From the NCBI GenBank assembly GCA_039819165.1, contig JBCBSM010000002.1, positions 357,832-421,831 of the forward strand: a stretch of DNA of 64,000 nucleotides, in the 5' to 3' direction. This DNA is from Planctomycetota bacterium (GTDB taxonomy: Bacteria; Planctomycetota; Phycisphaerae; Phycisphaerales; UBA1924). Position numbers and translations under genes: made by a program. This document shows, piece by piece, positions 13,761-15,636 of this stretch (the first letter of the stretch is position 1; each line of letters starts with the position of its first letter). The notes under the pieces are model-generated. The model was not told the origin of the DNA. It made no database searches and saw only the letters and a list, made by a program, of their open reading frames with translations.

Positions 13761-14458
13761 TTTCGAAGATCTTCGCCGCACTCGGGGCAGACGGGGTCGC
13801 GCAGCCCGCGGAGGTCGTAGCCGCATCGGGGGCAGATCTCTTTCTCGAGCCGCGTGCGTGCCCGATCGCGCGCCATCTGCAGCGCCATGGACCGCAGCAC
13901 GAGGACGGCAATCCAGGCCGGGGCACCGACGATGACGAGGTCGAGCGGGAGTTCGCGTCCCCCGCCCGTGCGTTCCCATCGCACGTACGCGACGCGCGCC
14001 GGATGTCCCGATGGAGCACCAAGCGTCGACCACGAACGAGCGCGGGGCGTGAAGCCGGTCGCACGCTCGATTGCCCGCGTGATCGATTCAATATCTGCGA
14101 CGTCGTCCGACGCGATGCGGAGATGGGCGTGGCCGTGCCGCGCAGCGACGCCGACCGGAAACGACGCGTCGCCATAGCCCTCGCGCAGGACGATGCGGCC
14201 GTAGGCGACGACGCCGGCACGATCCCGCAGCTCGGCGGCCGCATCTCGCAAGGTCGCGTTGCGCAGCCGACGAGCGCGGAACCCCCCGAACGGCGAACGC
14301 TCGACGAGCACGCGCATGTCCTGACGCGTCCTGGATGCCTCCAAGACGCGATAGGACAACGCCATGGCCAGCAGGATGCCGAGCAGCACCACCAACGCGG
14401 CCCGTTGGTGGTCACCACGGCGGTGCTGGGCGTGCCGGCGCCGGTGGGCATCGGTCAT
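13757..14458 (-). CDS. Membrane protein with C-terminal zinc ribbon
   Basis: The 233-residue product has a His/Arg-rich N-terminus, TM1 at about 20-36 (ALVVLLGILLAMALSY), a soluble stretch, and a second hydrophobic segment near 170-188 (LPLDLVIVGAPAWIAVLVL). It ends in a zinc ribbon with CPRCGYDLRGL and CPECGE, a tail common in planctomycete membrane proteins. Role unknown. Its ATG overlaps the infC stop as ATGA, so it is translationally coupled to infC, and its TAG overlaps that of the ABC permease. There is no link to translation in the sequence itself. Confidence 0.75.
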   Translation of the reverse strand: MTDAHRRRHAQHRRGDHQRAALVVLLGILLAMALSYRVLEASRTRQDMRVLVERSPFGGFRARRLRNATLRDAAAELRDRAGVVAYGRIVLREGYGDASFPVGVAARHGHAHLRIASDDVADIESITRAIERATGFTPRARSWSTLGAPSGHPARVAYVRWERTGGGRELPLDLVIVGAPAWIAVLVLRSMALQMARDRARTRLEKEICPRCGYDLRGLRDPVCPECGEDLRN

Positions 14459-15237
14459 TCACCCAGCAATGCGCTGATCTCGTCCTCCACGGGGTTGGAG
14501 ACCTTCCGCGTGGGCTTCTTGTCCTTGTCGGAGGCGTCGGCCGCCTGGGTCTCCGTGGCCTCGACGTCCTCGTCGTCGTCGGCCTCGCTGGCGTCGGCCT
14601 CGTCGAGCTTGGCGATCTGGGCGTCCAGCTCGGCGTCGGCCTTGGCCTCCGCGTCGGCCTCCTGCTGCTTCTTGCGCTTGGCCAGCTCGACCTTGTTCTT
14701 GTCGGGCGCGAGCACGATGCTGGCCTGCCGCATCACCCAGCGGGGCGCCATCTCGACCTTGGAGATGTCGCCGAGCTGCTCGACGATCTCGCTGAGCCGC
14801 TCGAGGCCCAGCTCCTTGTGGATCATCTCGCGGCCGCGGAAGCGCTGGGTGATCTGGACCTTGTGGCCCTGCATCAGGAAGCGGCGGGCCTGGTTGACGC
14901 GGATCTGCACGTCGTGGGGGTCGATCTTCACCGACCGGCCCAGGCGGACCTCCTTGATCTCCTGCTGGTTGGCCGACTTGTTGTCCTTGCGTTTGGACTG
15001 ATCGTACTTGAACTTGCCATAGTCCATGATCTTGCACACGGGCGGGCGGGTGTCGGCCACGACCTCGACGAGATCGAGTCCGGCCTCCTGGGCCATGCGC
15101 ATGGCGTCGCGCGTCTCGACGACGCCGACCTGCTCGCCCTCGGGCCCGATGAGCCGGATGGGCGTGATGCGGATCATGTGGTTGACCCGCGTCCTGTTCA
15201 CCGGGCCGGCGTCGCGATAGAACCTTCGTCCTCGGAT
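14455..15237 (-). CDS. infC: Translation initiation factor IF-3, apparent AUC start
   Basis: IF-3 binds the 30S subunit, blocks premature 50S joining and checks the start codon. The N-domain holds IRITPIRLIGPEGEQVGVV, then ALRMA-like AMRMAQEAGLDLVEV and the KIMDYGKFKYDQSKR linker. The C-domain holds EIKEVRLGRSVKIDPHD and RFRGREMIHKELG. An acidic/Ala-rich tail of ~75 residues after about residue 185 is absent from most bacterial IF-3s. The usual N-terminal segment is encoded upstream of the nearest GTG (15201). An ATC at 15235-15237 sits seven bases after a perfect AAGGAG and is in frame, giving 260 residues, so AUC is the likely start. Such non-AUG starts are the known basis of infC autoregulation. 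rpmI and rplT do not follow. Confidence 0.95.
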   Translation of the reverse strand: MRGRRFYRDAGPVNRTRVNHMIRITPIRLIGPEGEQVGVVETRDAMRMAQEAGLDLVEVVADTRPPVCKIMDYGKFKYDQSKRKDNKSANQQEIKEVRLGRSVKIDPHDVQIRVNQARRFLMQGHKVQITQRFRGREMIHKELGLERLSEIVEQLGDISKVEMAPRWVMRQASIVLAPDKNKVELAKRKKQQEADAEAKADAELDAQIAKLDEADASEADDDEDVEATETQAADASDKDKKPTRKVSNPVEDEISALLGE

Positions 15238-15636
15238 GGTCAGTCTCCTTGCCTGTCGCCGGCCCCTCGCCGGCGGGTGTATCTCGAAGTGCCCTGGCTT
15301 CCTTCGTTCCGCGTCGGCAGGCCCGGCTCGGGCCAGCTAGTGCCGACAAACATAACCCCGCGTACCCCGTCGGCGGCCGACGGCGATGCACCTGCGGGCC
15401 GGTCGGCCGCACGCACGCGATCCCGCGGCCCGGTCACGAGCCGCAACTCTGCATCGGTTGGGTGTGGTGGCCGCTCAAGCTAGCGGTCCGCTCTGGCCTT
15501 CACGGCCAAAGAGTAACGTCCCCGGGGGGCGGGTGCAAGCCAATTCTGTCTCATTCGTGGCGGCCACTCGATAGACCAACCACCTTTGACGGCGGGTTGT
15601 TCGGTGCCGATCGGAAGACCGCCGGCCGTTGGCGGC
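15238..15636. other. 399-base intergenic region upstream of infC
   Basis: This stretch lies between the kinase stop and infC, both on the minus strand. I see no ORF with coding character. It must hold the infC leader and promoter: on the minus strand TTGCAC and TACTCT lie 17 bases apart (about 15508-15536), a weak match. A TGGCC/GGCCA stem-loop lies near 15493-15508. On the minus strand a CCGCC/GGCGG hairpin just past the kinase stop (about 15620-15636) has no U-tract. No recognisable L20-type leader structure could be confirmed by eye. Confidence 0.5.
15245..15250 (-). promoter_or_regulatory. Shine-Dalgarno that decides the infC start
   Basis: On the minus strand AAGGAG is followed by seven bases and then ATC, in frame with infC. 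The GTG at 15199-15201 has no ribosome-binding site, and a CTG at 15241-15243 is too close to the AAGGAG to be used. Confidence 0.65.

Follow-up and report, generated by a model that had tools for sequence, protein, structure and literature searches.

The window analysed here, a stretch of 64,000 nucleotides of planctomycete DNA, carries on its minus strand infC, the gene of translation initiation factor IF-3 (Table 1). The long form of the protein scores 184.6 bits against TIGR00168 (cut-off 60), with IF3_N and IF3_C both above cut-off, and the profile search found a single infC copy in the source genome. Behind IF3_C the protein has a long, charged and largely acidic C-terminal tail (window 14455-14703). 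The serine/threonine-kinase label of the ORF upstream of infC was read from its translation.

Table 1. Features of the infC locus, with coordinates of the window.
Feature	Position	Strand	Basis or remark
Shine-Dalgarno sequence (SD) AAGGAG of infC	15245..15250	-	sequence; complementary to the genome's own 16S 3' end
7-base spacer ACTGACC, SD to AUC	15238..15244	-	sequence
Inferred AUC (ATC) start codon of infC	15235..15237	-	SD spacing and comparison
infC N-terminal codons 2-13 (RGRRFYRDAGP and the GTG codon)	15199..15234	-	in the short form lost or, for GTG, the start
GTG, first ordinary start codon of the infC frame, residue 13 of the long form	15199..15201	-	without SD (by eye)
infC, translation initiation factor IF-3, 260 aa from AUC	14455..15237, stop included	-	TIGR00168
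IF3_N domain, residues 18-85 of the long form	14983..15186	-	PF05198
IF3_C domain, residues 93-178	14704..14961	-	PF00707
infC leader, gap between the upstream serine/threonine-kinase-like ORF and infC	15238..15636	-	no Rfam family

According to the original prediction, infC starts at an AUC preceded by AAGGAG and seven bases, and this arrangement, in frame with IF-3, was confirmed on the minus strand. The 3' end of the source genome's 16S rRNA reads CACCTCCTTT and matches the infC SD; the terminus GGATCACCTCCTTTCT is an exact hit at the end of the Rfam SSU match (1433.5 bits, L326), and given the tail CACCTCCTTTCT in the same genome, the SD of infC would pair perfectly over 6 bases. AGGAG or AAGGAG is retained in all 7 genomes of the genus. 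The GTG codon downstream was said to have no ribosome-binding site, and none is seen there by eye. It was also said that a start at this GTG would remove part of the N-domain, which is wrong: IF3_N begins five residues after the GTG, so such a start would trim the extension and not the domain. The next in-frame ATG (15177-15175) is residue 21 and lies inside IF3_N.

The order of the source genome was sampled with 61 genomes, i.e., 58 with an IF3_N match among the source genome and 60 relatives (the match was absent in three of these 61, and all 58 matched genomes were read) and three added from the phylum draw. Start codons were called by an automatic rule, with 7 calls hand-set after reading. 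The SD-anchored infC start is ATC in 49 genomes, ATT in 5, ATA in 4 and ATG in 3; an AUH codon is thus read in 58 of the 61 members, which bears out the claim that AUC, behind the only good SD, is the start. GGAG and the AUH are 7 or 8 bases apart in 52 of the 58 AUH calls. A conserved ATG or GTG with an SD of its own, the outcome that would have spoken against the AUC start, did not appear in this order-wide comparison (58 AUH, 3 ATG). By comparison, the codon, the SD and the spacing are kept across the order and the canonical codons are not. In the three members with ATG (L015, L057 and L058), GGAG lies 12-13 bases upstream compared with the usual 7-8, as if the spacing, not the codon, weakened initiation there.

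We also used a codon-blind search, in which the start is picked by SD score and spacing alone and the identity of the codon is ignored. The blind pick in 58 infC genes of the order was ATC in 41, ATA in 3, ATT in 3, another codon in 11 and ATG in none; the 11 non-AUH picks were mostly a neighbouring codon or another purine run. ATC is missing from the 12 commonest blind picks listed for either of the other two frames of these genes, and the 41 in-frame picks indicate that the SD-ATC of infC is more than chance. Under the same rule the control gene rplT (the top 30 by score among 61 matches, drawn from the 61 genomes above) gave ATG in 26 of 30, and reading of the starts gave ATG in 30 of 30; the E. 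coli record gives the expected ATT for infC (annotated start).

The 12 codons after the AUC behave, in their pattern of variation, as coding sequence. Among the 7 genomes of the genus, all 40 sites at bases -60 to -21 vary, as do 13 of the 20 sites at -20 to -1. Within infC codons 2-17, the first, second and third positions vary in 2, 0 and 8 of 16 codons, a pattern similar to that of the following 50 codons (6, 3 and 32 of 50). GC3 in the genus is 0.23 in codons 2-6 (35 sites), 0.86 in codons 7-17 (77 sites) and 0.90 beyond (350 sites, the 50 codons after the extension). Across 58 members of the order, codons 2-5 have a GC3 of 0.29-0.55, and from codon 15 onwards most values exceed 0.78. Please note that a drop of GC3 just behind the start codon is usual in bacterial genes.

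Two other places for the start have to be weighed against the AUC. Translation might begin at the GTG, which has no SD, the SD-AUC upstream of it being there by chance or for regulation: no ordinary start codon precedes the GTG in the frame, IF3_N would remain complete in the short protein, and the same position is GTG in 14 of the 58 AUH order members, two of which (L005 and L052) have an SD-like run there (a downstream GTG with such a run is found in three AUH members, L005, L037 and L052). However, 44 of the 58 carry a different codon at this position, and the stretch from AUC to GTG varies like coding sequence. Moreover, 17 of the 61 order genomes have an in-frame stop and then no ATG, GTG or TTG before IF3_N, so an ordinary infC start is unavailable in those genomes. 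We regard a start at the GTG as very improbable, and this codon is probably an internal Val codon. A start further upstream, at some unnoticed codon, seems more improbable still. The window's own frame is indeed open upstream (293 aa with this part included), but an in-frame stop lies no more than 20 codons upstream of the AUH in 26 of the 58 AUH members, in some of them inside the SD itself (TGA AGG AGA in L005 and L009). The full variability of bases -60 to -21 in the genus also stands against it, and an upstream ATG, GTG or TTG with an SD score of -6.5 or better occurs in only one order member; in one AUH member, L055, an upstream TTG shares the SD. Initiation of infC at the AUC is, judged from these comparisons, well supported.

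Very probably, the locus is best explained by translation of infC from this AUC behind a strong SD, together with a negative feedback by IF3 that we infer by analogy. The initiator tRNA would read AUC with a third-base mismatch, and IF3 would destabilise the mismatched initiation complexes; plentiful IF3 would lower its own synthesis and scarce IF3 would raise it, a negative feedback of the kind established for the AUU start in E. coli infC, while the strong SD may compensate for the weak codon. It is also conceivable that the AUC is the start but merely holds IF3 output low, with no IF3 feedback. Weak codons by themselves reduce expression, and there are relatives with AUG and other families with GTG or TTG, which suggests that feedback through the choice of codon is not indispensable. 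On the other hand, the gene of IF3 itself keeps codons that IF3 discriminates against, both in these planctomycetes and in other phyla, as feedback predicts, and feedback on E. coli infC was reportedly demonstrated by Butler et al. in 1987 and by Sacerdot et al. in 1996 (both cited in PMC5472188). We consider the absence of feedback unlikely, though it is the most serious of the three competitors to the AUC start with autoregulation.

Control of infC by a known leader RNA or riboswitch was rejected, since nothing in the window matched Rfam at gathering score and the fold of 15178-15300 is ordinary (z -0.71; equalled or bettered by 49 of 200 shuffles). The AUC start would correct the beginning of an essential gene, which a table-11 caller limited to ATG, GTG and TTG would set 12 codons late, and with it an entire order would join the organisms that have an IF3-disfavoured start codon in the gene of IF3 itself.

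The phylum was covered by a draw of 195 genomes (191 matched, 146 of these read), which together with the order and further genomes makes a set of 196. The automatic rule called ATC in 76 of these, ATT in 41, ATA in 8, ACG in 17, TTG in 12, GTG in 10, ATG in 4 and none in 28. GTG is the call in 9 of 17 infC genes of family f30, and TTG in 5 of 5 of family f15, indicating that a non-canonical infC start is not universal in the phylum and that codons which are ordinary, if weak, are used as well. The GTG starts of f30 (L061, L065, L070, L078, L083 and L117) stand unusually close to the SD, at a spacing of about 4 (AAGGAGCTACGTG and the like). In the codon-blind tally of the same set, 9 genomes had a weak SD and 187 were counted: ATC was picked in 57 (2.6 expected), ATT in 16 (2.4 expected) and ACG in 12 (3.5 expected), with P values that ignore kinship.

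The ACG calls deserve separate consideration. In families f21, f23, f36, f37 and f46, an ACG lies 7-9 bases after GGAG at the apparent infC start in 16 of the 17 genomes read (L079, L075, L088, L174/L201, L191, L192, L193/L157, L194, L195, L196/L093, L197/L169, L198, L199/L186/L204, L200, L202 and L081); the exception, L190, is TTG by the automatic rule. Families f23, f37 and f46 form one order, in which 13 of 14 genomes had a match (G243 gave no IF3_N match). One of these ACG loci, L204, comes from a named genome, the Planctomycetota MAG VGYY01000110.1, apparently the same contig as that of G120. The codon after the ACG is Ala or Ser in 11 of 16. Other Thr codons in the same infC genes are ACG in 35 of 104, compared with 16 of 16 at the candidate start, indicating that this is not just a conserved Thr, though kinship weakens the count. 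L079, L174/L201 and L194 lack any NTG or ATH codon from the in-frame stop to IF3_N; no other genome among the 196 shares this, and all three carry the ACG. With the blind rule, ACG is chosen in 11 of the 17 genomes of the ACG families, namely in 7 of the 13 from the order of G162 and in all 4 from f36 and f21. If one simply tallies the codons that follow any SD-like run at 5-9 bases, ACG does not stand out (20 genomes, vs 24 for GCC, 21 for ACC and 20 for TAC), so that the case rests on the position, the exact codon and the three genomes without alternatives. Two further ACG calls were rejected, that of L165 (f45), in which an ATT two codons on is the start in its relative L173, and that of L239, in which ATC is the next codon.

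Taken together, we think it highly probable, if slightly less so than the explanation given for the window, that the order of f23, f37 and f46 as well as f36 and f21 start infC at ACG, by which the IF3-sensitive mismatch would have shifted from codon base three to base two. If true, this would be a natural bacterial ACG start fixed over an order, with the initiator tRNA still paired to the first and third bases. We also considered two other ways to account for these genes, namely editing of the ACG to AUG at the RNA level, which occurs in chloroplasts (PMC9845219), and a changed initiator tRNA. By reading, ATG is the rplT start in each of the 12 matched genomes of the ACG order, which argues against a genome-wide change of start codon there. 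In an E. coli cell-free system only Watson-Crick pairs were tolerated at codon bases one and two, according to PMC10158994; this intolerance of a second-base mismatch would speak either against efficient use of ACG or for a strong sensitivity to IF3. In a limited literature search, ACG starts turned up for eukaryotes, viruses and chloroplasts, and no natural case from bacteria was found. An ACG start would add to the codons with which bacteria naturally begin translation, and AUC, AUU, AUA and apparently ACG in infC would make up a natural mutational series, with which one could test whether feedback is what the codon is selected for and which mismatches with the initiator anticodon are tolerated.

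An AUH start of infC is not new in kind. The gene starts at ATT in E. coli and at ATC in Streptomyces, with IF3 autoregulation, and in Streptomyces IF3 represses non-canonical starts, among them the GTC start of sigR (PMC5472188); an AUA start of S. aureus infC was detected by Ribo-Ret (PMC13009471), and Listeria infC starts at ATT (PMC13068326). We also scanned named genomes, in which 559 loci were confirmed and 80 of them kept; the 55 of these from outside the planctomycetes gave ATC in 16, ATA in 16, ATT in 9, GTG in 5, CTG in 4, TTG in 1 and none in 4. On the planctomycete side, infC of Gimesia or Gemmata relatives (L245 and L280) reads SD-AUC. Myxococcus infC (dsg) starts at AUC, and an arXiv survey of bacterial genes that prefer non-AUG starts reportedly covers infC. 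The notion that an AUC start here would newly carry the AUU logic into a deep branch was therefore overstated, with ATT, ATC and AUA of infC already in print from elsewhere and AUH calls in 41 of the 55 non-planctomycete loci. In four Gemmatimonadetes/Gemmatimonadales records (L249, L256, L260 and L276), infC apparently starts from CTG, 9 bases after GGAG.

The closest comparison is with E. coli, whose infC shares with that of the window a strong SD, an AUH start, a basic N-terminal extension before IF3_N and 41% protein identity, the alignment running from the first residue over 181 columns; the codon itself differs, being AUU there and AUC here. The thrS-infC-rpmI-rplT genes of E. coli are adjacent, whereas here infC (G000:C2:372 kb) and rplT (G000:C1:1706240-1706560) are far apart on different contigs; an infC-rpmI-rplT operon with an L20-type leader is not seen here, rplT not being beside infC and no leader RNA being matched by Rfam in the window. 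In the ACG order, infC and rplT lie within about 1.2 kb of each other in the 12 genomes matched for both. Streptomyces infC has the same ATC start (PMC5472188) but belongs to another phylum, and IF3 control was examined there on sigR. The infC genes of S. aureus (AUA) and Listeria (ATT) likewise have an AUH start, with another third base and in another phylum. Finally, the putative ACG-start infC genes of other planctomycetes have in common with the window a strong SD and, 7-9 bases behind GGAG, a codon that mismatches the initiator anticodon at one base, but they lie outside the window's order and their mismatch would fall on the second and not the third base of the codon.
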